From Elusimicrobia bacterium GWB2_63_22 (GTDB lineage Bacteria > Elusimicrobiota > Elusimicrobia > Elusimicrobiales > UBA9959): a DNA stretch of 35,667 bases. Positions 12,198 to 34,838 of this stretch are shown in pieces. Position 1 is the stretch's first letter. Each line of letters opens with the position of its first letter. The translations under genes were made by a program, and so were the position numbers. Location: the NCBI GenBank assembly GCA_001799735.1, contig MGUA01000034.1, positions 121,227-156,893 on the forward strand, given 5' to 3'. The notes below the pieces were generated by a model, which searched no databases, was not told where the DNA came from, and worked only from the letters and a program-made list of their open reading frames with translations.

Positions 12198-13463
12198 TTA
12201 GACCACCAGCGGCAGGCGGGTTATAACGTTTAAGCCGCCCTCCGGCCTGTTGGCGAATTGTATATCCCCGGAGTTGCGGGCCAGCAGGTCATGGGTCACC
12301 AGCAGCCCCACGCCGGTGCCGTCCGGCTTGGTGGTGATCTTCCTGCGGAAGGCGTTATGGAGCAGGTCCAGCGGCATGCCGGGTCCGTTGTCGGAGATAG
12401 CCACCACAACCTCCCTCTCCTCACACCTTATCTCTATCTCCACTACCTTGCCGGCAGAATTATCGCTGACGGCGTCAAAAGCGTTCTTAAGTATATTGAA
12501 ATAGGCCTGTTGCAGGTCCGGCCGCGAGGCGAAGACGCATATCTTCATTTTCTCCGGGTACTTTTTCACCAGCGTTACGCCTCTCGCCTGCGGCGCGAAA
12601 GAGGCCACGGCCAGTATCTGCCTGAAGAACTCCAGCAGTTCCAGCCTTTCGGCCGGCACCGGGGAAGTCTTGCCGAAGCGCGTGATGGCCTCCAGCGAAG
12701 CCGCCATGTCCGTCACCGCCGTATCAATGTCGCCCAGGGACTGCCTCAACTCCAAGGGATGGCCCTTAAGCAGCTCTATCTGCAGATAACCAGAAATTGC
12801 TCCCAGCGGGTTACGCAGGTTATGCACTATATGGTGGGCCAGCGCGCCTATATGCGCGGTAGCCTCCAGTTCGGAGAATTTCTTAAGCAAGCCTTCTTTC
12901 TGCTCGTTCTCCATTGCCAGTTTGACCAGCACGGCGTTTATTATCAGGCGGGAACTGAACCCGGCCATTATAATATAGGTGCAGTTGAGCCCCGCCACCA
13001 GCCAGACAATAACGGGGTTGGGATAAAGCGCGGCCTGCAGGGTGGGCGGCACCCCGAACATGCCGTGTATATCGCAGCATACGGAAAGCAGGTAACAGAG
13101 CGCGGCGAACACCGGCACCCACGGGTCGTCTATGCCGTACATCGCCTCGGAAATTATCACCCAGAAGAAAAGGAAGATGAACGGCGAGGACATACCGCCG
13201 GTATCCATCACCGCGAAAGCCAGCAGTGCCACATTGAACCAGGTAAGAGAAATATAAAAAAGGCGTTTCCTGTTGAAACGCGGGAAGAGCAGCCAGCCGC
13301 CCAAATGCGCAAGGCCGGACAATGCGGCGCTGGCGGCGAAGACCGCGCTGAACGGCGGCGAGGGCAGCAGCCACAGCAGGGCGCTGCCGCAGCCCATGGC
13401 GCCCACCATGGCCATGCTGCGGCGCAGCATGGCCGGGTTAAGCACGCCGCGCATGGGGTTCAT
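12198..13463 (-). CDS. Membrane histidine kinase of the carotenoid operon
   Basis: A 421-residue sensor kinase. Residues 15-180 contain about six hydrophobic segments without a large periplasmic loop, implying sensing within or at the membrane. A short coiled linker leads to the H-box AHHIVHNLRNPLG with phosphoacceptor His214. ATP-binding motifs follow: NILKNAFDAV (N-box), ISDNGPGMP (G1), and GTGVGLLVTHDLL (G2). No receiver or regulator gene is adjacent. The ATG overlaps the preceding stop in ATGA, with GGAGG upstream, so it is cotranslated with the lycopene-cyclase-like genes. This suggests that it senses, or is tuned by, membrane or carotenoid state (inference). Confidence 0.9.
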   Translation of the reverse strand: MNPMRGVLNPAMLRRSMAMVGAMGCGSALLWLLPSPPFSAVFAASAALSGLAHLGGWLLFPRFNRKRLFYISLTWFNVALLAFAVMDTGGMSSPFIFLFFWVIISEAMYGIDDPWVPVFAALCYLLSVCCDIHGMFGVPPTLQAALYPNPVIVWLVAGLNCTYIIMAGFSSRLIINAVLVKLAMENEQKEGLLKKFSELEATAHIGALAHHIVHNLRNPLGAISGYLQIELLKGHPLELRQSLGDIDTAVTDMAASLEAITRFGKTSPVPAERLELLEFFRQILAVASFAPQARGVTLVKKYPEKMKICVFASRPDLQQAYFNILKNAFDAVSDNSAGKVVEIEIRCEEREVVVAISDNGPGMPLDLLHNAFRRKITTKPDGTGVGLLVTHDLLARNSGDIQFANRPEGGLNVITRLPLVV

Positions 13464-13990
13464 CTGCCGCCCTCCAGCGGCCGCTCCCAGTAGCGCACAA
13501 AGGTAGGCCCCACCAGCATCAGCAGGCTGTAACCGAACAAGGCCTCGAGAGGCATATTGACGACCGGGATGTTCCCCCAGTCCCAGAACAGCCGGTCCCA
13601 GCGGTAGGTCCAGAGCCCCAGCTTGGCGCAGGCGGTCTCAATAGGGAAGCACACCAGGGCGCCGGCCAGCACGTCGAAGAGGAAGATGCGCTTGTCGTAC
13701 GGCTCTATCCGGTCCTTCTTAAGAAATTTGCAGTACAATTTCTCCGACACGAAAACGACCAGCGTGAACATGACGCCCCAGCCCAGCACCAGTATCAGCG
13801 GCGTGTCCTTATAGATATTGAGCCGCAGATGGTAGTCCCAGAGCGGTTCGGTGGCGAACTCGTTGAAAGCGCCTATCATGCTGCCGGCTATCATCTCGCC
13901 CAGCACATTGCGCTTAGCGAAGCGTTTGAACAACCACCAGATGATGGGCAGCTGTATGTAGGACCAGACCTCTACGATGATGAGCGTCAT
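13460..13990 (-). CDS. Polytopic membrane protein, possibly CruF-like carotenoid enzyme
   Basis: A 176-residue membrane protein with about five hydrophobic segments. I do not recognise it with certainty. PLILVLGWGVMFTLV after a short aromatic stretch, and DVLAGALVCFPIETACAKLGLWTYR, resemble the PL..PLGW and D....D.....P.A...G.W.W patterns of the CruF/DUF422 carotenoid hydratase family. The tail PVVNMPLEALFGYSLL also echoes the P.EE membrane motif of the neighbouring cyclase halves, so it may be a divergent relative of those. The start at 13990 overlaps the preceding stop (ATGA), and its own stop overlaps the kinase start. A role in modifying a carotenoid end group is inferred from context. 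Confidence 0.72.
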   Translation of the reverse strand: MTLIIVEVWSYIQLPIIWWLFKRFAKRNVLGEMIAGSMIGAFNEFATEPLWDYHLRLNIYKDTPLILVLGWGVMFTLVVFVSEKLYCKFLKKDRIEPYDKRIFLFDVLAGALVCFPIETACAKLGLWTYRWDRLFWDWGNIPVVNMPLEALFGYSLLMLVGPTFVRYWERPLEGGR

Positions 13991-14367
13991 TCTACTTCGC
14001 CTTTCCGGTCGTCCAGCCAGTTCTTGATGGCGTGCAGGCAGATCACCACGAACAGCGGCGGGAACCAGTAGTACAAGAGCGGCTCCTCTATGGGAATGCC
14101 GAAGAACATGGGCCCCACCACCCGGTCCGGGTTCCAGATCCAGTGCTGCCGGCTGACCGAGAAATACTCGGCCAGGAACATGACCACCTCGAAGGTACAG
14201 ATCATGGCTATGGCCGCCGGCCAATGCACCGACTTGCGGGCCGCCCTGTACAGAGGGATGGCGAGCAGCATGAACGGGGCCACCAGCACCACGGTGGCCG
14301 GCCACCTTTTTACCGTCTGCGGCGCGGCGGTCTTCTTTTCTTCTTCGTTGTTCAATGGTTCAGGCAT
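13987..14367 (-). CDS. Lycopene cyclase domain protein (second half, CrtYd-like)
   Basis: A 126-residue membrane protein with three hydrophobic segments after a charged, mostly polar N-terminus. FFGIPIEEPLLYYWFPPLFV carries the P.EE motif of the small heterodimeric lycopene cyclase domain family (CrtYc/CrtYd of actinobacteria, CarR/CrtYB domains of fungi). In that family two such halves combine to close beta-rings on linear carotenes. Its start overlaps the end of the first half gene by eight bases, the usual close spacing of this pair. No phytoene synthase or desaturase is in the window, so the carotene must be made by genes elsewhere. Confidence 0.85.
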   Translation of the reverse strand: MPEPLNNEEEKKTAAPQTVKRWPATVVLVAPFMLLAIPLYRAARKSVHWPAAIAMICTFEVVMFLAEYFSVSRQHWIWNPDRVVGPMFFGIPIEEPLLYYWFPPLFVVICLHAIKNWLDDRKGEVE

Positions 14368-14683
14368 TTAGCTTCTCCAGCAGTTTGCGGTACGAGAGGT
14401 AGATAGCCAGGCAGAAAGGCGTGGCGCCGAACCAGAACACGAACTCCTCCACCGGCGCCGGCCCCAGCCAGATGCCCAGCAGCGGGTCAAACTTCTCAGA
14501 GAAAGACCAGACGTCGAATTTAAGGTAGAGGTACTCCATAATAATGGACAGCACGCCCATTAGCGCGGAGGTCAGCCAGAAAGACTTCTTAAGCGAGCCG
14601 TCGAACAACTTCAGCAGGAAGACAATGAAGAAGAGCGACGGCACCCAGAACAACGCCGTGTAGGTAATGAAGTATAGTGGCAT
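14360..14683 (-). CDS. Lycopene cyclase domain protein (first half, CrtYc-like)
   Basis: A 107-residue membrane protein with three hydrophobic segments: a start MPLYFITYTALFWVPSLFF, a second helix, and LGPAPVEEFVFWFGATPF, which has the family's P.EE motif. It pairs with the next gene to form a split, heterodimeric lycopene cyclase. An in-frame ATG at 14698 (five codons earlier) is possible, but that ATG overlaps the probable -10 element and would lie before the transcription start; neither start has a ribosome site. It is the first gene of a four-gene operon with the second cyclase half, the CruF-like protein and the kinase. Confidence 0.83.
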   Translation of the reverse strand: MPLYFITYTALFWVPSLFFIVFLLKLFDGSLKKSFWLTSALMGVLSIIMEYLYLKFDVWSFSEKFDPLLGIWLGPAPVEEFVFWFGATPFCLAIYLSYRKLLEKLNA

Positions 14684-14696
14684 AGTTTGATATGCC

Positions 14697-14733
14697 ATCT
14701 TACCATGCCGCAGGTCGGAAAATCCCGAAGAGA
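14697..14733 (-). promoter_or_regulatory. Promoter of carotenoid operon with CTTCGGGATT element
   Basis: The minus strand shows TCTCTTCGGGATT (14721-14733), an 18-base spacer, and TAAGAT (14697-14702). The same upstream element occurs before the genes at 24155 and 26872. The -10 overlaps an upstream ATG, so the transcript would start about 14690 and have a very short leader. Confidence 0.55.
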
Positions 14734-14751
14734 TTGTGATTAATAAAAAAA

Positions 14752-14776
14752 TAAGCCCGCCGGGCTGGCGGGCTTA
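14752..14776 (-). terminator. Terminator of the L,D-transpeptidase gene
   Basis: A ten-base stem TAAGCCCGCC / GGCGGGCTTA with a five-base loop, followed on the minus strand by a T-rich run. It lies just after the transpeptidase stop and isolates that gene from the carotenoid operon. Confidence 0.88.
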
Positions 14777-14798
14777 CTGAAACAGAGTATATCTGGCC

Positions 14799-15479
14799 TT
14801 AATTAGCTGGGGTCGTCCCTGTCACACAGATGCTGGCGTTAGCCTTGCCGGCGGCCTTTACCACTCCGAAAAGCGTCTGGGCGTTGGCCTTGGACAGGCG
14901 TATGCAGCCGTGCGAGGCGGGCTGGCCCAGCTTCCATTCCGCCTCGGTGCCGTGGAGGGCGATATTGCCGTTAAAGAAGATGGAGTGGGGCATGGGCGCG
15001 CTGTTATAGAGGCTGGAGTAATGCATGGTCTCTATAAAGTCCGGGGCGAAGCACCGGCCGCTGCCGGGAGTGCCGTGCTCTGGGGGCAGGCCGGAGGAGA
15101 TCTTGAAAGTGGCGGAACTGCCGGGGGCGGTATAGCGCAGGCGCTGGGCGCTTAGGTCTATGGTTATCTGCACCGTGGCGAGCTTTGCCAGGTCGTTGCT
15201 GATTTTGTAGCGGGCCGGGAAACCATAGGCTTCCGCCCCGTCGTTGACCGGCAGGCCGAAGGCCAGCCCCACTTCCTCGGGGGTACGTTCGTCTATAAAC
15301 TTATCCGGATCGGCGGCGGCCTCCGCCCGCAGGGTTTCGGCGTCGCCTTGCGGCAGGGCCGCGGCGGGGATATAGGCCGCGACCGCATCGGAATCAAGCC
15401 CGTCGAACTCCCAGGCGGCCGAGTTGCCCGCGGCTAAAGCCAGCAGGGCGCAGGCTGCGGCAAATTTAAGGCTCTTCAT
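14799..15479 (-). CDS. L,D-transpeptidase (YkuD family)
   Basis: A 226-residue secreted enzyme that forms 3-3 peptidoglycan crosslinks or attaches proteins to the wall. A signal peptide is visible at 1-22 (MKSLKFAAACALLALAAGNS AA). The YkuD domain covers about 100-220, starting with IDLSAQRLRYTA and ending with the active-site motif: His176 in ALHGTE, then SHGCIRL with His190 and catalytic Cys192. Length is typical of single-domain members, with a short linker of about 75 residues after the signal. GGAG lies upstream of the ATG. It has its own terminator and probably its own promoter. Confidence 0.92.
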   Translation of the reverse strand: MKSLKFAAACALLALAAGNSAAWEFDGLDSDAVAAYIPAAALPQGDAETLRAEAAADPDKFIDERTPEEVGLAFGLPVNDGAEAYGFPARYKISNDLAKLATVQITIDLSAQRLRYTAPGSSATFKISSGLPPEHGTPGSGRCFAPDFIETMHYSSLYNSAPMPHSIFFNGNIALHGTEAEWKLGQPASHGCIRLSKANAQTLFGVVKAAGKANASICVTGTTPAN

Positions 15480-16077: not shown

Positions 16078-16770
16078 TCAGTCGGTTTTCAGGAGGGAGA
16101 TTTCGATACGCCTGTTCCTGGCTCGTCCTTCGGGCGTGACGTTATCTCCGACCGGCCGGTTATCCCCGTAGCCTATGCCTGCCAGATGCCTGGAGGAAAG
16201 CCCCTGTTCTTCCATAAAGCGCAGCACCGTATAAGCCCTGGCCATGGATAATTCCCAGTTGGAGGAGTATTTGCCGTTCCTGATAGGCAGGTTGTCGGTA
16301 TGCCCCTCAATGATCACGTCGTTCGGTATTTTCTTAAGCTCGGCGGCTATAGGCGCAAGGACCCGCCGGGCCGGTTCTTTTAATTCGGCCTTGCCGGAGG
16401 CAAAAAGCACGCCCTCGGTCAGCACCAGTTTGACTTTGCGCTCGTTGGACTGAACCTGCACAAGCTTCGCCAGCTCCTCGGTCTGCATGGATTCCTTAAG
16501 ATTGCTTTCCACCTGCGCCTCCTGCTCGCGCGCCTTGGCGCGTTCCAGGCCGGCGGAATCCGCCTTTCCCCCGAAAGCTTTCTGTATGTTGCCCAGCGAC
16601 TCCTCGTACTTGCGGCTTTTGGACTTATCGTTCTTCGCCACGGAGAACGAGAAAAGCACCAAAAAGAAGATCATGAGGTAGCTCATCAGGTCTCCGTAGG
16701 TCACGGCCCACAGAGCCCCTTTATTCAGGTGATTCTCCACATCGTCCCGTCTCTCCCGGCGCACCGTCAT
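16078..16770 (-). CDS. MotB-like stator protein with OmpA peptidoglycan-binding domain
   Basis: A 230-residue stator subunit that should anchor a proton- or sodium-driven motor to peptidoglycan. A single membrane helix at 21-43 carries Asp27 in WAVTYGDLMSYLMIFFLVLF, the ion-binding residue of MotB. A charged linker (45-105) leads to an OmpA-type domain with IIEGHTDNLPIRNG (153-166), NWELSMARAYTVLRFM, and RARNRRIEI. It is the last gene of a seven-gene operon and its ATG overlaps the stop of the coiled-coil gene. MotA is four genes upstream, separated by a FliF-FliG fusion and two coiled-coil genes rather than directly adjacent as usual. Confidence 0.93.
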   Translation of the reverse strand: MTVRRERRDDVENHLNKGALWAVTYGDLMSYLMIFFLVLFSFSVAKNDKSKSRKYEESLGNIQKAFGGKADSAGLERAKAREQEAQVESNLKESMQTEELAKLVQVQSNERKVKLVLTEGVLFASGKAELKEPARRVLAPIAAELKKIPNDVIIEGHTDNLPIRNGKYSSNWELSMARAYTVLRFMEEQGLSSRHLAGIGYGDNRPVGDNVTPEGRARNRRIEISLLKTD

Positions 16771-17696
16771 AAGTTCCCCTCCCGGCCGACGGCCGGTGCT
16801 TTTTTATCCGGCATCAGGAAAGCCAGTTCCACCCGAAAATGATTAAAGAGAGCGGTCAACTGCCCCACCTGGCGGGAAAGAGAATCCAGGTCCGAGGCCG
16901 TCTTTCCCTGCCCGGCCGAAACGGCGGCCGTCCGCTGCGACAGCCCGGTAAGAGACTTCTGCATCTCCTCAAGGCTGGGCTTAAGCGCCTGGATGGCGGC
17001 CTCACATTCGTATATCCGCTCGAACTTCCCCTCGCTGCCGCTCAATCTGGCCTCCAGATAGACGGATCTGGCCCCGGCCTCTTCCAGCTTGTCTATACGC
17101 CGCATATTCCCGCCGGAAGTCTCCAGCGCGGCCAAAGCCTTACGCCTGGTCTCCGCGAGCGCGGCGTCGAAAGCCTCCAGCCGCCGCGAGACCTCCTCCG
17201 CTACCCCCGCCTTCAATTTAAACACTTCCTCCTCAGGCAATACCGCCGTCCGGGCAGGGGGCGGCGCAGCCGCGGCATTGTGACAAGCCGCCGCCTCCGC
17301 CGCGCCAAGGCGGGAATTCAAGGAAGACAGTTCCGCCGTTATCCGGCCTGAGAGGATCTCCAACCGCGAGTTTTCCTGAAGGGCATAGGCCCTGACTTCC
17401 TCCACCTCCCTTTTTAGTCCCAAGGTCATTTTTTCCAGTTCGCGCCGGACGCTTTCGGGCGCGGCTTCGCACTTTTTAATTATGTTCTCCAACTCATTGA
17501 TCTTGGCCGTATCGGAAATGGCAGGGCCGCTGGCCGCAGCCTCTATTTTCTTTATTCTGTTTTCCAACTCCTCTATCTTTGCTCTGTCGGGAGAACCCGG
17601 AGGCGGAACCGGGGCAGGGGCAGCGGCGGCGCCCCATGCTTCTCCCGGAGGTTCAGCTGGTTTGAGAAAAGAGAAAAGGGAATCTTTGGATTTCAT
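16767..17696 (-). CDS. Proline-rich coiled-coil protein 2 of the motor operon
   Basis: A 309-residue protein with no signal peptide or membrane segment, so probably cytoplasmic. The first residues, KSKDSLFSFLKPAEPP, are followed by a Pro/Ala linker (20-38). Long heptad-like helices follow at about 39-130 and 155-295 (IEELENRIKKIEAA, INELENIIKKCEAA repeats), split by an Ala/Pro linker near 140. The N-terminal S(I/L)FS...P...EPP pattern is shared with the next protein, so the two may be paralogs or may dock to one partner. I do not recognise a family. It lies between a FliG-like rotor and MotB, which suggests a scaffold or transmission role (inference). Confidence 0.85.
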   Translation of the reverse strand: MKSKDSLFSFLKPAEPPGEAWGAAAAPAPVPPPGSPDRAKIEELENRIKKIEAAASGPAISDTAKINELENIIKKCEAAPESVRRELEKMTLGLKREVEEVRAYALQENSRLEILSGRITAELSSLNSRLGAAEAAACHNAAAAPPPARTAVLPEEEVFKLKAGVAEEVSRRLEAFDAALAETRRKALAALETSGGNMRRIDKLEEAGARSVYLEARLSGSEGKFERIYECEAAIQALKPSLEEMQKSLTGLSQRTAAVSAGQGKTASDLDSLSRQVGQLTALFNHFRVELAFLMPDKKAPAVGREGNL

Positions 17697-17697
17697 A

Positions 17698-19101
17698 TCA
17701 ATCCCCCGGGTTCAGGCGCACCGATTTCAGATTAATTTCTATCTCCGCGCGCACCCCCGCCACGGAAACGGCTTCGCGTTCCAGCGCGCCGATAAGCCCT
17801 GACGCCGCCTCAAAATTCTTCCGCACTATGGAACCGGAAACGCCCATCAGGCCGTCCAGGTTGACGGCCTCAAGGCTCCTGACCATGGTCTTCAGTCCTT
17901 TCATAACCTCCGCCAGCCGGAGTTCCAGCCGCGAGACAGCGGAGACAGAAGCCGCCATGGCGGCGGAACCGGCGGCGGACAGATGCAGCGCCTCTTTTAT
18001 GCTTGCCAACTGCCCCGCGTTCTCCGCGCGCAGCGCCTCCACCAGTTCCGCTGCGCGTTTTCCCATCCCCTTCTCCGCGTCGGCGAGCATTTCGGAGACG
18101 CGCTTTTCCAGCGCCGCCCCCCTTTCCTCCCCCCGGCGCTGCGCTTCCGAAATTTCGTCCATGTGGCAGACAAGCGTCCGGGCCAGCGAATCCAGGCGTT
18201 CGCGCGCGTCCAGCGCGGACGCGTCCAGGTGCCGCACAAAGGCGGCGCTCCCTTTTTCCACTCCCTCGGGCACGGCCGAAAGGATCTCCTGCCGGGTCTC
18301 CAGCACCCTTTCCTCCACCGCCTGTTTACCGGAGAACGCGTCTAGGCGCTGCTGGCGCAACTCCTCTCCGAACTCTTTTAACCTGGCGTCTATGCCGGCC
18401 ACCGCCTCCCTGGCCCCGGCCTCTATCCAGCCGGTGGGGGCGGGTGCGGCCTCCGCACGGGCGGAAAGGGAGACCACCGCCGCCTCCAGCGCCTTCAAGC
18501 GCCCGGCCAGCGCCGCTTCCACGGCGCGCGCGGCGCCGGCGGCAACCTCCTCCGCGGTCAAATTCGGCGCGCGCGGTCCCTCCTCTTTTTTCGCCGCCGA
18601 GGCATACACTTCCATCAGGCGTTTTTCCATCTCCTCCACGCGGCTCCAGGCCTTCTCCAGCTGGTCGTGCATCTGGCGGTCCAGCTCGGTGTATTTCTGT
18701 TGTTCGCGCACAGCTTTCAACAATTCCTCTATTTCACGCCTGGCGCCTATTTTGGACTCCTCAATATTCTTCATCTGGGCCGTGCCCATGACGAATTTTT
18801 CCTGAAACTCTTTAAGGCGGTTCTCCATCTCCGTCATTTTGGCCAGCATGGCCGGTGCCAGCGGGGACGGCGGCGGGGGCGGGGGAGGCGCCTGCTGCGC
18901 CAGTTTTTTCCCCAGCTCACCCACTATATTGCTCTCCATGAGATCAATTTTTCTGCTCAGCGCGTTAATGCGCTCCGCGTCCGGGGCCGGAGCCGGCCTG
19001 GGCGCGGGCTCGGCGGGCCGTTCCGGCTGGGCCGGCGGCTCGGAAAGCCCGGGCATTATCCCCGAGAAAATAGACCTCTTTTTGTCCTGGTTGCGTTCCA
19101 T
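17698..19101 (-). CDS. Proline-rich coiled-coil protein 1 of the motor operon
   Basis: A 467-residue protein without signal or membrane helix. It starts NQDKKRSIFSGIMPGLSEPP, then has two proline-rich linkers (about 20-42 and a run of prolines near 72-80). Several coiled-coil segments follow, with clear heptads such as MLAKMTEMENRLKEFQEKF and WSRVEEMEKRLMEVYA, and an alanine-rich helical C-terminal half. The start resembles coiled-coil protein 2. GGAGGGAG precedes the ATG, ten bases after the FliF-FliG stop. No family is recognised. Position and composition suggest a cytoplasmic scaffold linked to the FliG-like domain, comparable in idea to helical tether proteins of gliding machines, but this is inference. 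Confidence 0.87.
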   Translation of the reverse strand: MERNQDKKRSIFSGIMPGLSEPPAQPERPAEPAPRPAPAPDAERINALSRKIDLMESNIVGELGKKLAQQAPPPPPPPSPLAPAMLAKMTEMENRLKEFQEKFVMGTAQMKNIEESKIGARREIEELLKAVREQQKYTELDRQMHDQLEKAWSRVEEMEKRLMEVYASAAKKEEGPRAPNLTAEEVAAGAARAVEAALAGRLKALEAAVVSLSARAEAAPAPTGWIEAGAREAVAGIDARLKEFGEELRQQRLDAFSGKQAVEERVLETRQEILSAVPEGVEKGSAAFVRHLDASALDARERLDSLARTLVCHMDEISEAQRRGEERGAALEKRVSEMLADAEKGMGKRAAELVEALRAENAGQLASIKEALHLSAAGSAAMAASVSAVSRLELRLAEVMKGLKTMVRSLEAVNLDGLMGVSGSIVRKNFEAASGLIGALEREAVSVAGVRAEIEINLKSVRLNPGD

Positions 19102-19110
19102 ACTCCCTCC

Positions 19111-20649
19111 TTAGGCCGCGGCCTGCCCTTCCGCCCCTATCAAGGGCTGCCCGCCAACGGCAGGGTTGGCTATCCTGCCGTCCCTTATCATCGTCTCCGC
19201 GGCACCCATGATGCGCTCCACGGCCTGCTCCGTCCTCTCCTGCGAGGGAACGCCGTAACTAATGCTCTGCTCTATCATCTGCCAGGTCTTTTCCGCCATC
19301 TGGGTTTTCAGCTTGTCCCGCGCTTCAGCCGGCAGTTCCAACATGGCCGCGGCCCATTCCTCCACGTTTACCGCGCCGGCCATCAGCGAGAGTTCCCTGT
19401 CGCTGAACAGCGCCAGGTCCTCGGGCATTAAGATCTGCCGGCGCATCTCGGCCGCCAGTTCCGGCTGCTTTTTGCGAATTTCCTCCATTACCACCCTCTT
19501 GCCGCGCAGGCTCATGCCGCCTATAGCCTCAAGCGTGCCGTCTATCCCCCCTGTGGCGCCGCTAAGGCGCCGCTCCAGCTCGTCCTTGAGCGTAGCTATG
19601 ATCTCCGGTTCCACAAAGCGGACCTTGGCCATATTGATCAGCACCTCGGAGGAAAACTGCGGCGGCAGCTTCTCAAGGAAATCCTGGCGGACCTCCCTGG
19701 ACAGATGCGCCGCAACCAGTGCCACGTTGGCGGGCTCCTCCCCGGCCATCATGTTCACCAGGAAAGGCACCTGCTCGCGGCTGATCTCAAAGCGCAGCGC
19801 GTCCCGGCTCCCCGCCTCCTGATCCTTGGACAAAGCGGCCAGCAGCGGCCTCTCCGCGGCGCCTAAGGCCGGCGACCCCGCTTCAGCTCCGGGCTCGGTT
19901 CCCTTGCCCAGTTCCATGGTTATCTGGTGGTTCTGCTGCACTTTGGCCATTGTGCTCATGGCGCCGGCGAGCTTGAGGAAACCCACCGCCACCACGCCCA
20001 TGGCTATTATCGCCATGAGCGCCAGCATGATGTATTTCAGCCCCTCGGGCGTATACCAGACCGTGCGCCAGAACGGGGCGAACTGCGTCTTTATCACGGA
20101 TAACTGGTCCCCCCTTGCGGGGTCCAGGGAAAGCATTTCCGACACCACACGCCGCACGTTCTCGGCCTCGCCAGCCGGCAGTTCACGGTTCACTATAACG
20201 CTTACCGTCATCTTTTTAACAAAAGCCGCCGGGTAGATGGTCTGCCTGTTATAGGTCTTGTTCTCCGGCGCGGCGGCCGGGCCCTCCGGGGACGGGAAAC
20301 CCGGCAACAGGTAGCCCTCTCCGGTTTCCGGCTCGGCGCCGGTCTGCCATTTAAACAGCCCCCCGCCGGAACCGTTCTTTACCGGTTCCCCTTTCATCTC
20401 CAGTTTCTCCATACGGTTAAAATCCATCAAGATCTCCACCACTACCTTGGCCTGGTTGGGGCCCAGCAGCCGCAGCAGCACCTCGTCAACCTTCTGTTCA
20501 AGGCCCCTTTCGTACCGCGCCTTATCCTCGAAAGGCAGGGACTGCGCGTGGGAGGCGCCGGGCCGGGCCGCGGCCGTAAGCAGGCCGGCCAGGCAAAGCG
20601 CGATAATTTTAAGCGGGCTTGCCGTCAGGGTTATATTCACGTTAGACAT
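19111..20649 (-). CDS. Natural FliF(C-terminal)-FliG fusion, reduced rotor protein
   Basis: A 512-residue fusion of MS-ring and switch proteins. Residues 1-37 are a signal or first membrane helix. Residues 45-195 match the C-terminal periplasmic part of FliF: RLLGPNQAKVVVEILMDFNRMEK, KMTVSVIVN, and LDPARGDQLSVI. A membrane helix (about 205-228) follows, then FliG middle domain (EEPANVALVAAHL, about 290-365) and C-terminal domain (GGIDGTLEAI, PELAAEMRRQILMPEDLALF, about 366-495). The FliF ring domains 1-2 and the FliG N-terminal domain, which normally binds FliF, are missing; covalent fusion replaces that contact. The torque-helix motif is SDRELSLMAGAV, less charged than DDR.IQ.LLREVD. I chose 20649 because GGAG precedes it; 20661 is an alternative. 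Confidence 0.92.
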   Translation of the reverse strand: MSNVNITLTASPLKIIALCLAGLLTAAARPGASHAQSLPFEDKARYERGLEQKVDEVLLRLLGPNQAKVVVEILMDFNRMEKLEMKGEPVKNGSGGGLFKWQTGAEPETGEGYLLPGFPSPEGPAAAPENKTYNRQTIYPAAFVKKMTVSVIVNRELPAGEAENVRRVVSEMLSLDPARGDQLSVIKTQFAPFWRTVWYTPEGLKYIMLALMAIIAMGVVAVGFLKLAGAMSTMAKVQQNHQITMELGKGTEPGAEAGSPALGAAERPLLAALSKDQEAGSRDALRFEISREQVPFLVNMMAGEEPANVALVAAHLSREVRQDFLEKLPPQFSSEVLINMAKVRFVEPEIIATLKDELERRLSGATGGIDGTLEAIGGMSLRGKRVVMEEIRKKQPELAAEMRRQILMPEDLALFSDRELSLMAGAVNVEEWAAAMLELPAEARDKLKTQMAEKTWQMIEQSISYGVPSQERTEQAVERIMGAAETMIRDGRIANPAVGGQPLIGAEGQAAA

Positions 20650-20667
20650 ATTAGACTCCATTTGCGC

Positions 20668-21408
20668 CTACCGGCAGAACGACTGCAGGCGGCGCTCCAC
20701 CACCATAGGCAGGCTTCCTTTCATTATTTCCAGTATCCCTTCCATAATCATGGACCTTGTATGCGTCTCCATTATGCCCCTGGCCCTTATCTTCCCGGCC
20801 ACCGGTACGCAGACCAGGTTGGAGAAAACTATGCCGTAGAAAGCGGAAGTAATGGCCATGGCCATGGCCGGCCCTACATTCTCCGGGCTGGCCAGGTCTT
20901 TAAGCACGCCGATTATCCCGATCAAGGTTCCCAACAGGCCGAACATGGGCGCCATGACGCCCATGGTCCGGTAGACGTTGGCCACCTCGTTCTTCTCATC
21001 CAGGGCCTGGTTTATCTCCTCCTCCAGCACCTGTTTAACGAACTTATAGTCGTTGTACTCCAGCGCGGCGGCCGCCGCCCTGGCCAGGAACCCGCCCGCG
21101 GCCGCCGGGTCCGCGTCCTTAAGGGCTGCCAGGCCGCGCTGCCGGCATTGTTCCGCCAGTTCCACCATCGGCCCGATCATTTTTTCCGGCCTCATCCCGT
21201 CCTCCGGAGCCAGAATGGACCGTATTTCCAGCGCCGCCTTCCGCAGATAGGCGGCCGGACTGTTTATCAGCATGGCCACGGCGGTGCCGCCCAGAACTAT
21301 CAGCACGCCATGCAGATTTATCAGCGCCGCGGTGAACTGGCCCGCGTACGCGCCGCCGGCGGCCAGGGCCGCCAGGAGCACTATCCCGCTTACCGTAGCT
21401 ACGTCCAT
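20668..21408 (-). CDS. MotA-like stator protein
   Basis: A 246-residue MotA/ExbB-superfamily ion-channel subunit of MotA type. Four membrane helices are visible (about 5-24, 31-50, 148-170, 183-205) with a large cytoplasmic loop between helices 2 and 3. MAPMFGLLGTLIGIIGVL and SNLVCVPVAGKI contain the two conserved prolines (154 and 202) that couple ion flow to movement. With MotB it should form the 5:2 stator, and the FliG-like domain next door is the natural rotor partner. GGAGGAG precedes the ATG. No FliM, FliN, rod, hook, filament or export gene is in the window. Confidence 0.93.
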   Translation of the reverse strand: MDVATVSGIVLLAALAAGGAYAGQFTAALINLHGVLIVLGGTAVAMLINSPAAYLRKAALEIRSILAPEDGMRPEKMIGPMVELAEQCRQRGLAALKDADPAAAGGFLARAAAAALEYNDYKFVKQVLEEEINQALDEKNEVANVYRTMGVMAPMFGLLGTLIGIIGVLKDLASPENVGPAMAMAITSAFYGIVFSNLVCVPVAGKIRARGIMETHTRSMIMEGILEIMKGSLPMVVERRLQSFCR

Positions 21409-21431
21409 TACTCCTCCTTCCCGCCGGCGCC

Positions 21432-22373
21432 TCAGGACAGCGCCGGAACCTTGAAATAAAACGTGGAACCTTTACCAAGCCCCGGGCTGGAAGCCCCTAT
21501 CTCGCCGTCGTGGGAGCGGACTATCTCCTGGGCTATGGATAGGCCGAGCCCCCACCCCAGCTTACGCAGTTTCTGGTCCTTCTGGTATTTGGCCTGGTAA
21601 AATTTCTCAAATATCTTCCTGGTCTCGCTGGGATGTATGCCTATCCCGGCGTCCCTTACCAATGTTGTTATGTATCTGCCTTCCCTCCGGAACGAGATCT
21701 CCACTTTTTTCCCGGACGGCGTGAATTTGATGGCATTGTTAACCAGGTTCATGAACACCTGCGAGAGCCGGAACTTATCCCCGTCCACCAGCGTCCCCGC
21801 CGGGAGCTCATAAACCAGCAGTTCGACGCCCTTTTTCTGGGCGTTGATGGCGATGCCGGGCAGCACGTCCGCGGCCATGGCATAGAATTCAAAGGTCGCC
21901 TTCTCCATTTTAAGTTTGCCGGCCTCTATCATGGCGAGGTCGGTCAGGTCGGAGATAAGATGCCCCAGTTGGTCGGTGGAACTGATAATGCTTTTCAGAT
22001 AGGCCGTTTCTTTCACCCCCCCGGTCCGCTTCGCCAGCAGTTCGCTGAAGCCCCTTATAGAGGCCAGCGGGGTGCGCACGTCGTGCACCACCATGGAGAG
22101 GAACTTGCTCTTCATCTCGTTGAGCCGCCCCAACTCCTGGTTGGAGAGCGAAAGTTTGGAGGACATGGCCTCCAGCTCCTGCTTACGCTGATACAGCTGG
22201 CCTTGCGCCAGGGCAATGCGTTCCATATAGCGCTGTATAACCATATTTGAGAAGTTCTGCCGCTGATTATAGCGGGACGACTGCACGAAACCCGACACAT
22301 GGGCCACCACCAGGAATCCCGCCGCCAACAGCAGCAGCGAGAGCGGGATAAAAGCGATGACCAGCATTTCCAT
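21432..22373 (-). CDS. Histidine kinase of the motor operon
   Basis: A 313-residue sensor kinase. One membrane helix (5-27) is followed by a long coiled linker (about 50-85), then the H-box FLSMVVHDVRTPLASIRGF with His97. ATP-binding motifs are NLVNNAIKFTP (N-box), VRDAGIGIHPSE (G1), FEKFYQ (F-box), and GWGLGLSIAQEIV (G2). There is no periplasmic sensor domain, so the input is probably at the membrane or through the helix. It lies between the PorV-like gene and motA: its GAGG ribosome site overlaps the preceding stop. A role in controlling motor activity, perhaps through the nearby CheY-like receivers, is inferred. Confidence 0.92.
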   Translation of the reverse strand: MEMLVIAFIPLSLLLLAAGFLVVAHVSGFVQSSRYNQRQNFSNMVIQRYMERIALAQGQLYQRKQELEAMSSKLSLSNQELGRLNEMKSKFLSMVVHDVRTPLASIRGFSELLAKRTGGVKETAYLKSIISSTDQLGHLISDLTDLAMIEAGKLKMEKATFEFYAMAADVLPGIAINAQKKGVELLVYELPAGTLVDGDKFRLSQVFMNLVNNAIKFTPSGKKVEISFRREGRYITTLVRDAGIGIHPSETRKIFEKFYQAKYQKDQKLRKLGWGLGLSIAQEIVRSHDGEIGASSPGLGKGSTFYFKVPALS

Positions 22374-22379
22374 AAGGCC

Positions 22380-24155
22380 TCAACGGACGGCCGGCTTGGC
22401 GTCAACAGCCTTGTCGGGCGCCGGCAGGGCCTCGGCGCTTGTCTCCGCCCAGCCCTGTTCCCGCATAAATCTCCTTATAATCTCATCCCCGGGCTTTATG
22501 GAGAGAGCCTTTTTAAAGGCTTCCTTCGCCCTCTCCTGGTCGCCCATCATGTAGTAGGAAGACCCCAGCTTGGTCCACGCCTGGTGATTCTCCCCGTCCA
22601 GCACCAGCACCTCTTCGCACTCGCGCACGGCCGCGTCGAACTGGCGCAGGTAGAAAGCCCTGCCCGCCTTCTTCAGTTTCTCCTTCAGCAGGGCCTCACG
22701 GCGCAGTATCTCGTCGCGCCTGACCGGAAGATTTACCAGCCCGCTGAGCACGGTGAGCAGCTCCTCGTACACCGGATCTCCGCGCATGTCTATGCCCAGG
22801 GCGGCATGGGCCAGCAGGAAAGACTTGAACCGCCCGCCCTCTACGTATTCCGCTATCGCCTGCGCGGCGGCGCCGGCCTGCTCGGAAGCTGCCGCCAGCA
22901 CGCCCTCGCGGCCCTGGATACTCCCCAGCCGCAACCCGCCGATTATTTCAGCCAAGCGCTTCTGTCTGCCGCCCCATGCGCCGTTCTTAAGGGCCGGTTC
23001 CAGGTTAAAGGCCTTGTTAATGTTCCCGTCAGCCGCCACGTACCTGCGGGCGGCCAGGTCTTTGCCCGCCAGCTCCAGAAAGTCCTTCGCAAAAAGTTCC
23101 AGCTTCTCGATCTTTTCTTTTGTAGCTATCAGTTTGGCTTTCTCGGCCCGCTTGGTCTTTCCATCAAGAGGCCGCCGGGCGGCCGGGGCCCCGAAGCGCA
23201 TGGAAACGCCGAACTTATGCATGGCCCCCAGCTCGCCGTACGGGGACAAGGAATAATCGATATCCACCACCGAAAGCCTGAAGCCCAGGCCGAAACGAAA
23301 CCCGGAACCTATATCCTGCCCCGTCCTGTAACCGCAGCGCACGGCCAGCAGCTGCATGGCCTCGTATTCGGCGCCCAGGGCCGCATAATAATTTTCGTCG
23401 TTGGAGATGGTCTGGTCCAGACTGATTATAAGCCGCGAATCCCCTTTGGGATAGGACTGCCAGGAGGCGCCGGCGGTAACGGACAGCGGCAGCGGGGCGG
23501 AGCGGTTGTCGAACTTAAGGCCCGGGCCTATATTCCTTATTACCAGCGCCGCGCGTAATTCGGGCGCCCGGGCCTTTTTAGCCCAGTAGCCGGACGGCCT
23601 TATGTAGTAGATCGCCCCCAGGTCCAGCGCCGCGGTGTTGGCCGAGACCCCTGCCAGCTTTTCACTTATCAGCTTAAGCCCGGCGCCGGCGCTGAGTACC
23701 GGACGCTCGATCTCGTCCTTAAGCAGCGCGCGCCCGTAGGCCGCGCCCAAAGCCAGGTCGGAGGACTCCACATTGCCGGTCGGAGTGCCGAGCGCGTCGT
23801 AGCCCCGGAACGGGGAGACGCTGAGCCTGGTAAGGCTCAGGGCCGCGGCGGAACCGTAGCGCAGCGGGTAGGCCGCGGAAAGGTACTGGTGAGTCACGTC
23901 CTCGAGGGAAGCATTGTGCGTGGCGGCGGCCTCGGCACGCTCCAGGGCGCCCAGGCCGGCAGGATTCCACCAGGGGGAGTAAGCGTCCTCGCTTACCGAG
24001 GCAAACGACTCACCCATGCCGCTGGCGCGGGGGCTGGGTGAGATCTTAAGGAAAGACGCCCCGGAATACCCCGCCTCACCGCCCGAAGCCGGGAAAGCCC
24101 ATACTGCAAGGCATAGCGCGGCAAAGCCGATCTTTATTTGTTTTTTGCGCTTCAT
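22380..24155 (-). CDS. PorV/PorQ-like outer-membrane barrel with C-terminal TPR
   Basis: A 591-residue exported protein heading the motor operon. A signal peptide covers about 1-25. Residues 30-325 read as the PorV/PorQ (UPF0164) barrel: GASFLKISPSPRASGMGESF, DAYSPWWNPAGLG, and FGVSMRFGAP at the end. In Bacteroidota PorV is a shuttle of type IX secretion. A charged helical part follows, then TPR-like repeats near 510-575 (AWTKLGSSYYMMGDQERAKEAFKKAL). The C-terminal TPR half is not part of standard PorV. ATG at 24155 has AGGTG upstream; a GTG three codons earlier is possible. It may connect the inner-membrane motor to the outer membrane (inference). Confidence 0.87.
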   Translation of the reverse strand: MKRKKQIKIGFAALCLAVWAFPASGGEAGYSGASFLKISPSPRASGMGESFASVSEDAYSPWWNPAGLGALERAEAAATHNASLEDVTHQYLSAAYPLRYGSAAALSLTRLSVSPFRGYDALGTPTGNVESSDLALGAAYGRALLKDEIERPVLSAGAGLKLISEKLAGVSANTAALDLGAIYYIRPSGYWAKKARAPELRAALVIRNIGPGLKFDNRSAPLPLSVTAGASWQSYPKGDSRLIISLDQTISNDENYYAALGAEYEAMQLLAVRCGYRTGQDIGSGFRFGLGFRLSVVDIDYSLSPYGELGAMHKFGVSMRFGAPAARRPLDGKTKRAEKAKLIATKEKIEKLELFAKDFLELAGKDLAARRYVAADGNINKAFNLEPALKNGAWGGRQKRLAEIIGGLRLGSIQGREGVLAAASEQAGAAAQAIAEYVEGGRFKSFLLAHAALGIDMRGDPVYEELLTVLSGLVNLPVRRDEILRREALLKEKLKKAGRAFYLRQFDAAVRECEEVLVLDGENHQAWTKLGSSYYMMGDQERAKEAFKKALSIKPGDEIIRRFMREQGWAETSAEALPAPDKAVDAKPAVR

Positions 24156-24176
24156 ATAGACCACACCTGTGTATAT

Positions 24177-24212
24177 AGTCTATAGCAGCCGGCGCCGCGA
24201 ATCCCGAAGAAA
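24177..24212 (-). promoter_or_regulatory. Promoter of motor operon with CTTCGGGATT element
   Basis: The minus strand reads TTTCTTCGGGATT (24200-24212), then TATAGA at 15 bases or TAGACT at 17 bases. The upstream element is the same as before the carotenoid operon and before the kinase at 26872. Confidence 0.55.
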
Positions 24213-24678: not shown

Positions 24679-25050
24679 TCAGTTAAATCTGCGTCTGTGC
24701 TCCACCCGTTCTATCTCGGCGGCTATCCGGTCAAAGTCAAAAGGCTTCGCCAGCACCGGGATCTCCCTGGGCAAGCCCGCGCGCTTTAAATCCGCCTCGG
24801 TGGCGCCGGTTATAATTATAACCGGGATCCCCTCCAGGTCCGGGTACATGTCCATCATGGCAACCATGGACCCGCCGTCCATGCCCGGCATGTTCAGGTC
24901 GGTGATAACCAGTTCGGGGCGCTCCCGCAGGGCCAATCTGACAAGGTCTACCCCATTCACCGCGCTTTTAACTTCGTGGCCCAGCCCGGTCAGAAAGTCC
25001 TCCAGCAGCGCCCGCAAAAGTTCGTCGTCCTCGGCTATAAGTGTCCGCAT
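24679..25050 (-). CDS. CheY-like single-domain response regulator
   Basis: A 123-residue receiver with no output domain. Acidic pocket LIAEDDELLR, phosphoacceptor Asp in LVITDLNMPGMDG, Thr in VIIITGA, and Lys in VLAKPFDFD are all present. Its ATG follows the upstream receiver's stop after four bases, and that stop overlaps its GAGG site. It must act through a partner protein. In this setting the kinases and the FliG-like rotor are candidates, but no FliM is found. Confidence 0.92.
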   Translation of the reverse strand: MRTLIAEDDELLRALLEDFLTGLGHEVKSAVNGVDLVRLALRERPELVITDLNMPGMDGGSMVAMMDMYPDLEGIPVIIITGATEADLKRAGLPREIPVLAKPFDFDRIAAEIERVEHRRRFN

Positions 25051-25054
25051 AACC

Positions 25055-25447
25055 TCAGTTCCGGCCCCCCAATATCTCTACCACACGCGCCAGCACCGTC
25101 TCAGGCGGCGTCATTTTAGGGTAATAGCACACAAAGCCGCGCGCTTTTGCAAACACCTTGTCCAGTTCCGCCTCCATGAAGTTTTCCCCGGTCATCACCA
25201 CGAACGGAATAGCATTCAGCCTCCCGTCAGTAACGCCGCGGCGCCCCAGTTCTACCACGAACTCTTTCCCGGACATCTCCGGCATGGACACGTCCAGCAC
25301 CATGAAATCGGGCAAAGAGCGCCCCAACGCCTCCAGCGCCTGCAACCCGTTGCCGGCCAGGTCCACCTGGTACCCGGCCTCTTCGAACACGTATTTATAG
25401 AGTTCCCTGATGCTCGGTTCGTCATCCACTATAAGTATCTTTGCCAT
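25055..25447 (-). CDS. CheY-like single-domain response regulator (divergent C-terminus)
   Basis: A 130-residue receiver. AKILIVDDEPSIRELYKYVF and FMVLDVSMPEMSG give the acidic pocket and phosphoacceptor; VVMTGE carries the Thr. The usual KP motif reads YYPKMTP, so the Lys is present but shifted or altered. AGGAGG lies upstream of the ATG. It follows the PAS kinase gene and is closely similar at its N-terminus to the receiver fragment at 29985-30194. Confidence 0.92.
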   Translation of the reverse strand: MAKILIVDDEPSIRELYKYVFEEAGYQVDLAGNGLQALEALGRSLPDFMVLDVSMPEMSGKEFVVELGRRGVTDGRLNAIPFVVMTGENFMEAELDKVFAKARGFVCYYPKMTPPETVLARVVEILGGRN

Positions 25448-25474
25448 AATTATGCAGGCCTCCTGTGGCCGTAT

Positions 25475-26872
25475 TCAGCGGGGCGGCGCCTGGGGTACGC
25501 ACGGAAGCACGAAGCAGAACCTGCTGCCGCGGCCTTCTTCCGATTCCACCCAGATACGGCCCTTATGCAGTTCCACCGCCATCCTGCACATGGCCAACCC
25601 AAGCCCGAACCCCATGTATTTGTGTTCCTCCAACTGCGCGTATTTTTCAAATATCTCCTGCTGTTTCTCCCTTGGAATGCCGGGCCCGTCGTCCTGCACC
25701 CCGAACAGCGTTTCCCCTTCCGCGCCGCGGCAGGAGATCACCACCTTCCCCCCGGCAGCGGCGAACTTCAGCGAATTGCCCACCAGGTTGCACAGCACGC
25801 GTTCCAGCAGCCTCGGGTCGCCGGAGAAAAAAAGATCTTCTGCCGGCAGGTCCATGGAGAGGGTTATCCCCTTCCTGGCGGCGAGCGGCGCGTGCAGCTC
25901 ATAAACCCGCGCGCACATATCGCGGGCCTCCAGCCGCACGGGCACCAGTGTCATCTCCCCGCGCTCCAGCTTTACGGTATTCAGGATATCGCTTATCATA
26001 CCGTTCAGGCGGGCGGAGGCGCGCCTGATCACCTGCAGGTGCTTTTTCCCGCCGCTGCCAGGAGGCATGTCCTTTTCCAGCAGTTGGGCGTAGCCTTGTA
26101 TGCTCGACAGCGGAGCGCGCATGTCGTGCGTCACCATGTGAAAGAAGGTTTCGCGGGCGCTCTCTATCTCTTTCTCCATGGTCACGTCCCGTATTACTAT
26201 AACACGCCCGGGCCGCTTGAAGGTCGCCAGGTCAAAACGGCGCGAGATTACCCGGTACTCCTTGCCTGGCGGCGAACCGTCGGGGCCCGGCGGCACGCTG
26301 ACCTCCGCCTTCAGGGCGGCATCCGTCCCCGCAAGCGCCTCCGCCACGGCAGCGGCGAAAGCCTGCTCCCCTACCGAGGCGGGCAGGGTGATGTCCTGTT
26401 CTTGCGCGGGAATGCCCAGTAACCTGAGCGCGCGCTGGTTAGAGTAGATCAGCCGCCCCCGCTCCCCCACCAGCAGCACACCGTCCGTTATGGTCTCTAT
26501 GAGCGCCTGGGCTTTGGCCCGGTCCTCCACCACCTGGTTAAGGTGGAAGGCGCGGTAGGCGCCCAGCTCCAGCATAAGCCTGTTGAGCCCCGAGACGACC
26601 CCCTGGGCCTCGGACCACCCCTCTTTGGGCAGCGGCGTCTCCAATCTGCCGTCCGCCAGGATAAAAGCTTTCAGGCGCCCGGAGATATTGCTAAAAGGCA
26701 GCAGAAGGCCGTTGCGCAATATCCTGGCGACAGGATACGAGACCAGCGCGGCGGCTATCACCGCCGCGCCCAGGCAGTAATTGCTCCCTGGCCCGCAGGA
26801 ATATAGCGCCAGCGCGGGCAGCAGGGCAGCGGCAAAGGTCAGCGCGTTGAGTTTTACGGTGCTATTCTTCAT
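25475..26872 (-). CDS. PAS-containing membrane histidine kinase
   Basis: A 465-residue sensor kinase. Two membrane helices (about 8-25 and 34-50) with almost no periplasmic loop are followed by a HAMP-like linker (50-115), a PAS-like domain (about 122-232, ITDGVLLVGERGRLIYSN), the H-box FFHMVTHDMRAPLSSI with His249, and ATPase motifs NLVGNSLKFA, VQDDGPGIP and GFGLGLAMC. It is the first gene of an operon with three single-domain receivers, so it probably phosphorylates one or more of them. Its promoter shares an upstream element with the motor and carotenoid operons. Confidence 0.93.
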   Translation of the reverse strand: MKNSTVKLNALTFAAALLPALALYSCGPGSNYCLGAAVIAAALVSYPVARILRNGLLLPFSNISGRLKAFILADGRLETPLPKEGWSEAQGVVSGLNRLMLELGAYRAFHLNQVVEDRAKAQALIETITDGVLLVGERGRLIYSNQRALRLLGIPAQEQDITLPASVGEQAFAAAVAEALAGTDAALKAEVSVPPGPDGSPPGKEYRVISRRFDLATFKRPGRVIVIRDVTMEKEIESARETFFHMVTHDMRAPLSSIQGYAQLLEKDMPPGSGGKKHLQVIRRASARLNGMISDILNTVKLERGEMTLVPVRLEARDMCARVYELHAPLAARKGITLSMDLPAEDLFFSGDPRLLERVLCNLVGNSLKFAAAGGKVVISCRGAEGETLFGVQDDGPGIPREKQQEIFEKYAQLEEHKYMGFGLGLAMCRMAVELHKGRIWVESEEGRGSRFCFVLPCVPQAPPR

Positions 26873-26896: not shown

Positions 26897-26932
26897 ATAT
26901 TATACACATACTTCCGCGAACAATCCCGAAGA
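26897..26932 (-). promoter_or_regulatory. Promoter of kinase-receiver operon with CTTCGGGATT element
   Basis: The minus strand reads CTTCTTCGGGATT (about 26920-26932), a 17-base spacer, then a perfect TATAAT (26897-26902). This is the clearest of the three copies of this promoter type. Confidence 0.68.
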
Positions 26933-29443: not shown

Positions 29444-29962
29444 CTAAGAGTGTTGCCCCATATGGGGACAGAATGTCGGAAACGAGGGCGCTCTGCCCAG
29501 GGCGCAGGTGTCCTCAAAGGCGTCTACATAGGCTTTATTGGCCGCGGCGTCGGCGCTTGCCGGCGCGGCCAGCCCCTGCAGGGCGGCGCCGCAATATTCA
29601 GCCGCGTATATTTCACCCGCGCCCGTCATGCGGATAACCTCGGAGGCCCCGGTGGAGATCAGCACCAGGGCGCCGCCGGCGCCCGCGGCGGAGGAGATAT
29701 GCAGCAAAGCCGCCGGGGCAGCGGTGCCTATGCCTATTTTGCCGTAGCTCACGGCAAAGGAAGAGCCTCCCACGCTGAAACCGGCCCCCTGCACGTCCGC
29801 GCTGCCCTGTATCACGGCGTAAGCGCCCACGCGCAGCTTGTCCACAGCTTCAAATTCCGCGACGGAAAGAACAGGGGCCGCGGTTAAGAAGGGGACGGCA
29901 ATAAAGCAAGCCGGGAGGAACGCCCGCTTTAAGAACCGGTATTTGGCGCCGCTGGTAAACAC
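29444..29962 (-). CDS. Secreted tail-fibre-like modular protein
   Basis: A 172-residue exported protein. A basic N-terminus and hydrophobic stretch (FLPACFIAVPFLTAAPVLS) form a signal. FEAVDKLRVGAYAVIQGSAD, then GSSFAVSYGKIGIGTAAPA, is the repeated module common to the proteins at 34839 and 35319. The C-terminal part has a phage-fibre-like linker (AAPASADAAANKAYVDAF) but ends soon after with TCALGRAPSFPTFCPHMG, perhaps truncated. GTG start at 29962 with GGAG five bases upstream. Such modules are found in tail-fibre or adhesin stalks; the true ligand is unknown. Confidence 0.78.
   Translation of the reverse strand: MFTSGAKYRFLKRAFLPACFIAVPFLTAAPVLSVAEFEAVDKLRVGAYAVIQGSADVQGAGFSVGGSSFAVSYGKIGIGTAAPAALLHISSAAGAGGALVLISTGASEVIRMTGAGEIYAAEYCGAALQGLAAPASADAAANKAYVDAFEDTCALGRAPSFPTFCPHMGQHS
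29710..29870. repeat. Duplicated 160-base module, copy A
   Basis: It matches 35051-35211 with one difference seen (offset 5341). It encodes the FEAVDKLRVGAYAV...GIGTAAPAA module; the sequences on each side differ. Confidence 0.83.
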
Positions 29963-29984
29963 AAGACTCTCCTTTATCCCCGGT

Positions 29985-30194
29985 TTATATTTTCGCCCGG
30001 CGAATTAAGTTGCGTGTCACCTTATTTTCCCCAGAGCCGCCCCGGAGCGCGCCCAGGGCCTCCCGGCCGTTGTTCGCCAGTGCCACCTCGTGGCCGGCGT
30101 CCTCAAAAACATATTTAAACAGTTCCCGGATAGCGGGTTCATCGCCAAAAATAAGTATTTTGGCTTTATAGCGGCCGAGATTTGTTTTTTGCAT
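29985..30194 (-). pseudogene. Truncated response-regulator receiver fragment
   Basis: 69 codons. KAKILIFGDEPAIRELFKYV and GHEVALANNGREALGAL match the first 45 residues of the receiver at 25055-25447, after which the frame turns into an unrelated GSGENKVTRNLIRRAKI and stops. The phosphoacceptor region and the rest of the domain are absent, and the acidic pair is changed (FGDE). It is a relic, probably left by duplication and deletion. Confidence 0.75.
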
Positions 30195-30229
30195 ATCTTT
30201 GGTTTGCTATTTCATGAAAACGCTAAAAG

Positions 30230-32212: not shown

Positions 32213-32227
32213 GGCTTAAGTTCTCCG

Positions 32228-34198: not shown

Positions 34199-34224
34199 AG
34201 CTTAAGCTCTCCGCTCTTGACCGG

Positions 34225-34830
34225 CTACAGGCTTGTCCAACCCGTGCCGTCGCAATATTCCAGCGAATGTGCGGAGTAATTGTAGCGTTGCGTGCCTTCG
34301 AGCAACGAGTTACAGATCGTTACGGTCGTTTGACTACCCGCGCGTATCCCTCCGTTGACATCAAGGCTGATTTGCGGCGTAGTAGTCCCGATACCGACGT
34401 TGCCGCCCGTAACAACCAGCGTAGAGCCGCCCACCGAAAAGGCGTCTCCCTGAACGGTGATGGTAGACGCGGTGGTGAGCTGGCCGCTCATGAAGTCGCC
34501 GGTCCTGGCGACCCGGCCCTCAACGGTTCCCGTAGTCAACTGGACCCAGACCAGAGCGGTCCTGTCCCACACTTTGTAATAGGTCCCATCAAAGTACAAC
34601 CCTCCCGGAGTGGTCAACTGCGTAGCCAGGGCGGGGTTATTGGGAGCCGCCGACAGAGCGCCGAAATAACTGACGCTAGACAGGTTGACCTGGTTGTCCA
34701 CCGTGAAGCTGCCAGCCACTATCTCGAACTCGCTGGCCGCGGCGCCGCACGGGCCAAACCACACGAACGCCGCCGCCAGGGCCGCAAATCCAATGAATCT
34801 CCCGCCCGCCGGCTTGTCTGATTTCTTCAT
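34225..34830 (-). CDS. Short paralog with only the N-terminal adhesin module
   Basis: A 201-residue exported protein. A signal peptide (about 1-33) precedes the same module as copies 1 and 2: FEIVAGSFTVDNQ, GLYFDGTYYKVWDRTALVWV, VGIGTTTPQISLDVNGGIRA, and EYCDGTGWTSL at the very end. A stop follows exactly where the paralogs continue into the 97-residue repeats, so it is either a natural head-only protein or a truncation at a module border. No clear ribosome site is seen. Confidence 0.82.
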   Translation of the reverse strand: MKKSDKPAGGRFIGFAALAAAFVWFGPCGAAASEFEIVAGSFTVDNQVNLSSVSYFGALSAAPNNPALATQLTTPGGLYFDGTYYKVWDRTALVWVQLTTGTVEGRVARTGDFMSGQLTTASTITVQGDAFSVGGSTLVVTGGNVGIGTTTPQISLDVNGGIRAGSQTTVTICNSLLEGTQRYNYSAHSLEYCDGTGWTSL

Positions 34831-34838
34831 AAACTTAA

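Follow-up and report, generated by a model that had tools for sequence, protein, structure and literature searches.

The locus described here resembles parts of two known systems. The CrtYc/CrtYd cyclases and their homologues (CrtYe/CrtYf and LitAB) are tandem, half-size membrane proteins that are homologous to each other, contain a CarR/Lycopene_cyc domain, and each carry a P.EE motif. The redox kinases RegB, PrrB, and ActS have a membrane N-terminus and HisKA and HATPase_c domains; the quinone-binding heptapeptide of RegB is GGXXNPF (PMC8191878).

The stretch of DNA that was analysed (35,667 nucleotides, hereafter the window) is from Elusimicrobia bacterium GWB2_63_22 (GCA_001799735.1, contig MGUA01000034.1, positions 121,227-156,893), the genome of which is available as a 3.06-Mb draft. 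In this window, genes similar to both systems are found in a single block.

The four-gene block and its proteins

The block comprises four genes on the minus strand, preceded by a putative promoter element that is found exactly three times in the window, each time before a minus-strand operon:

14360..14683, minus strand: CrtYc-like half cyclase, 107 amino acids, motif APVEEF (TIGR03462 and PF18916 matches, both under cut-off)
13987..14367, minus strand: CrtYd-like half cyclase, 126 amino acids, motif IPIEEP (PF18916 match over cut-off, TIGR03462 match under)
13460..13990, minus strand: TM3, 176-amino-acid membrane protein with five predicted helices and invariant E118, P147, and E149
12198..13463, minus strand: RegB/PrrB-like sensor histidine kinase, 421 amino acids, with GGMSSPF in the membrane part
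14697..14730, minus strand: putative promoter element CTTCGGGATT-N18-TAAGAT, preceding CrtYc
24177..24209, minus strand: the same CTTCGGGATT element, preceding the motor operon
26897..26931, minus strand: the same CTTCGGGATT element, preceding histidine kinase/receiver genes (24679-26872)
14750..14778, minus strand: terminator-like hairpin and T run (12-bp stem; consensus match only)

The gene ends overlap at CrtYc/CrtYd (ATGCCTGA), CrtYd/TM3 (ATGA), and TM3/kinase (ATGA), which bears out the claim of a preliminary description of this DNA that the kinase is in one operon with the pair, with overlapping starts and stops. An L,D-transpeptidase gene (14799-15479) lies upstream, and the hairpin separates it from the CrtYc promoter.

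The two halves belong to the CrtYc/CrtYd, Lycopene_cyc/CarR-domain superfamily. In profile searches, PF18916 matches the CrtYd-like protein with an E value of 2.6e-6 (over the cut-off) and the CrtYc-like protein with 1.3e-3 (under it), while TIGR03462 matches CrtYc at 1.1e-7 and CrtYd at 2.4e-6, both below the curated cut-off of 39.4 bits. The halves are mutually homologous (hhalign P 1e-5), and none of the 14 CrtYc-like or the 14 CrtYd-like orthologues departs from the proline or either glutamate of P.EE. These matches and the invariant motif confirm that two half-size, cyclase-type proteins are present, each with a P.EE motif, as had been proposed. The predicted structure of CrtYd is too poor for use (pLDDT 61), and a search for plasmid-borne relatives found none.

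The third protein had been described as CruF-like. This identity is rejected: in a profile search TM3 has no match to PF04240, its sole match being to DUF6989 (0.012, under the cut-off). A real CruF-like gene (L028:10080-10937, PF04240 1e-11) is found elsewhere in the genome, on contig C12, which is the only contig of this genome with a PF04240 match in the profile search. When TM3 was compared, as a candidate third cyclase half, with the CrtYc and CrtYd profiles, hhalign P values were 0.007 and 0.047 and HMM scores fell within those of shuffled controls; judged by these comparisons, homology of TM3 to the cyclases is not significant. A 346-amino-acid membrane protein of genome G024 (L119:6058-7098), with two similar halves and a P.E motif in each, weakly resembles both TM3 and Lycopene_cyc, and by BLAST looked like a bridge between them; genes for a radical SAM/SPASM protein and an adenylate/guanylate cyclase are located near it.

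The kinase is complete and RegB-like. Profile searches identify HATPase_c (9e-17) and HisKA (5e-6) domains, and the H, N, G1, and G2 boxes are all intact. A RegB-type model matches residues 72-410 at 1.2e-17, far below the cut-off of that model. The motif GGxxSP[FLM] is present in all 19 aligned kinase homologues and reads GGMSSPF in the window kinase: this is near the RegB heptapeptide but not identical to it, as S replaces N. No redox-box cysteine was seen in the kinase by eye.

Conservation of the block and the promoter of the window copy

The CrtYc/CrtYd pair is found in 13 of 32 same-genus genomes. TM3 accompanies it in 10 of these 13 and is tandemly duplicated in five of the 10. The order CrtYc-CrtYd-TM3 (one or two copies)-kinase holds in every same-genus locus with TM3 and extends to more distant Elusimicrobiota, some of which have an extra Lycopene_cyc protein before the kinase. 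The exceptions are G010, in which the kinase is absent beside CrtYd, and G007, G010, and G018, in which TM3 is absent. A FadL-like outer membrane gene follows the kinase in ten loci of the genus (L028-L037), and receiver or HTH-receiver proteins are encoded upstream of CrtYc in L037, L126, L122, and L132. A scan of named genomes with two TM3 peptide patterns, which does not exclude other phyla, identified 18 loci, 16 of them titled Elusimicrobia, Elusimicrobiota, or Elusimicrobiales and two titled only "bacterium". Because it recurs in 13 genomes of the genus and in other Elusimicrobiota, the four-gene block is real and under selection; it is a conserved Elusimicrobiota module.

Contig C12 of the same genome holds a further copy of the block that has diverged from the one in the window and is preceded by another kinase. 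Upstream of this copy are hypA-like and Mrp-like genes, and downstream are an OMPP1/FadL-like gene, the CruF-like gene noted above, and an ABC importer resembling BtuF/C/D (the hypA and Btu names were assigned from reading the sequences). CruF-like (PF04240) members are also found in six relatives. In a tree of CrtYc and CrtYd the window and C12 copies fall apart from each other, so that recent duplication is not supported as the origin of the window copy; it is instead an old paralogue or was acquired by transfer.

The preliminary description had also claimed that the block shares a promoter element with a motor operon, and the genome-wide search upholds this. The pattern CTTCGGGATT-N17/18-TANNNT has only three genomic matches, each of them within the window, versus 0 for a reversed-pattern control, which is more than chance would give. 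The operons behind these sites are the CrtYc block, a FliG/MotA/MotB motor operon (start 24164), and histidine kinase/receiver two-component genes (start 26872). The receiver proteins encoded at 24679-25447 have no DNA-binding domain that could be seen. The motor operon (16078-24164, minus strand) encodes a PorV/TPR protein, a histidine kinase, MotA, a FliF/FliG fusion, two further proteins, and MotB-OmpA; the fusion joins the FliF C-terminal, FliG middle, and FliG C-terminal domains in a single protein. No flagellar filament genes were seen beside this operon. MotA orthologues with 58-65% identity are found in most same-genus genomes, and the element is present in 14 of the 16 motor-operon regions of relatives examined, mostly with a 17-base spacer. 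Across the 32 genomes there are 93 matches to the element versus 6 to the reversed control. The element defines a small regulon in the genus: most genomes have 1-7 matches, G022 has 20, and some relatives carry two copies of it 11 bp apart.

The CTTCGGGATT element is absent from the CrtYc loci of relatives and from the C12 copy; most of these loci share a different element near AACTTGCTATCATT. Given the promoter element held in common with the motor operon, the window copy is a member of the motor regulon or has been drawn into it. Elsewhere in the window, at 29444-35300 (minus strand), genes for secreted proteins recur in tandem as near-copies, a judgement based on the N-terminal parts of the proteins: 30230-32212 resembles 32228-34198, and 29444-29962 resembles 34839-35300.

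Candidate functions and the carotenoid pathway in carriers

Our leading interpretation, held tentatively and as something short of probable, is of a membrane module whose cyclase-like pair and TM3 modify or sense a membrane isoprenoid and are coupled to a redox-type, RegB-like kinase. The CrtYc/CrtYd-like pair and TM3 would be translated together with the kinase and may form a physical complex with it. The pair would bind, or cyclise or protonate, a membrane isoprenoid other than lycopene (a quinone tail, a polyprenol, or a squalene-type lipid); since both P.EE motifs are retained, something is probably still bound or protonated. The kinase would report the bound lipid or its redox state, and the promoter element that the window copy shares with the FliG/MotA/MotB operon suggests a link to motor output. 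A broader proposal, which we regard as possible but more doubtful, is that a cyclase-type heterodimer has been repurposed phylum-wide as a signalling input, passing information on a non-carotenoid isoprenoid to a dedicated kinase and, here, to a non-flagellar FliG-MotAB motor.

It is also conceivable, though we consider it unlikely, that the module is a non-catalytic lipid sensor, in which the CrtYc/CrtYd-like proteins and TM3 serve the kinase as subunits that bind a ligand, much as Insig-type lipid sensors do. The near-constant linkage to a kinase and the response regulators of some loci are consistent with this, as is the predicted fold of TM3. The AlphaFold model of TM3 is good (pLDDT 82, pTM 0.78, five helices), and MvINS, an Insig homologue from mycobacteria, is its top fold match (VIA Z 7.8, versus 4.9 for the next unrelated row). 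However, this match is weak by Foldseek (E 0.18, TM-score about 0.4), and on account of that E value we treat it as a lead only. TM3 has no INSIG sequence match in the Pfam profile search, and a search of solved structures by sequence returned nothing useful. The invariance of both P.EE glutamates in both halves also argues against a purely non-catalytic role, as it points to chemistry.

An improbable explanation, in our assessment, is that the pair genuinely cyclises lycopene (or a C30 carotene), with the kinase merely co-transcribed or regulating pigment; desaturation would then be carried out by a distant CrtI-like protein, or the substrate would be taken up via the FadL-like porin. Superfamily membership, the intact P.EE motifs, and the CruF-like and FadL-like genes of the sister locus on C12 favour this explanation, and the genome has some candidate pathway genes. 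When crtB and crtI were sought, as the preliminary description had advised, only distant homologues were found in this genome: two SQS_PSY genes, one HpnD-like and one SQS-like, whose best scores are to the HpnD/squalene type, and one CrtI-family flavoprotein on contig C7 (183 bits, with a cut-off of 238). The gene for this flavoprotein is followed, in the same operon, by three B12-radical SAM-like genes (L038:6335-12178), and the same arrangement is found in G003 (L240:1782-7625).

Against a carotene cyclase stands the distribution of CrtI. In profile searches (E below 1e-20), CrtI-family genes are absent from 11 of the 13 same-genus carriers of the pair, and the other two carriers, this genome and G003, have the distant CrtI-like flavoprotein only; the sole full-strength CrtI of the genus is in G029, a genome without the pair. 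With p values uncorrected for kinship among 32 phylogenetically non-independent genomes, and absences that rest on drafts, the pair and CrtI are not associated (Fisher p 0.42), while TM3 (p 4e-6) and the CruF-like PF04240 (p 5e-4) are found only in pair carriers. One carrier of the pair, the 95% complete genome G010, lacks any SQS_PSY gene. Among eight other carriers, G062 alone has real CrtI genes, two in number; they are on a different contig from the pair, with no synthase or cyclase (CrtY) beside them. These two CrtI-type genes flank a probable aldehyde dehydrogenase gene (L238:6286-10773), reminiscent of C30 carotenoid clusters. Plant-type or other desaturases were also considered and provisionally set aside, as the full-length PF01593 matches look, by eye, like protoporphyrinogen oxidase or mutase-type flavoproteins.

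Of the earlier suggestion that the block forms carotenoid end groups, the CrtYc/CrtYd-type halves stand, and the carotenoid role itself is doubtful by that description's own test for carotene genes, CrtI being missing from most carriers. With CrtI mostly absent and no SQS_PSY gene in G010, lycopene is an unlikely substrate, and carotene cyclisation an unlikely activity, in most hosts; because most relatives with the same genes lack a pigment pathway, the pair probably does or senses something else. The CrtI-like flavoproteins of this genome and G003, and the CrtI genes of G062, mean that the pair may still act on carotenoids in some hosts. Finally, the exceptional loci noted above (G010 without the kinase next to CrtYd; G007, G010, and G018 without TM3) would be expected if the genes were mere neighbours with unrelated roles, linked by local history, but the starts overlap, and the order is kept in distant genera as well as at two separate loci of this genome, which makes this very improbable.

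If the isoprenoid-module interpretation is correct, the CrtYcd family would be separated from carotenoid chemistry, and the block would provide a testable example of a protein from a cyclase family that senses or modifies another membrane isoprenoid. It would also caution against predicting pigments solely from a lycopene cyclase annotation. The shared promoter element offers a direct way into the question of what the module controls or responds to.

Comparison with known systems

The pair differs from the CrtYc/CrtYd cyclases in that its scores are under the curated cut-offs (save that of CrtYd in Pfam) and in its genetic context: crtB and crtI are not linked to it, the genome as a whole usually lacks CrtI, and the linked genes are instead those for the kinase and TM3. 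The kinase shares the membrane N-terminus and the HisKA and HATPase_c domains of RegB, PrrB, and ActS but has GGxxSP rather than GGXXNPF, and no RegA is adjacent to it in the window, a regulator being found only in some loci. CruF (PF04240) is represented downstream in the C12 sister locus and not by the 176-amino-acid protein of the window. The resemblance of the TM3 model to MvINS, its best structural match, may reflect a common helical arrangement only, given the weak score and the lack of a sequence match.

Among the papers searched, we found none that ties CrtYcd to Elusimicrobia or to an operon with a kinase, nor any description of this gene combination, of its conservation in a phylum largely without a carotenoid pathway, or of a promoter shared with a motor operon. 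The components themselves are familiar: both halves fall within an established superfamily, and the kinase likewise belongs to a recognised type.
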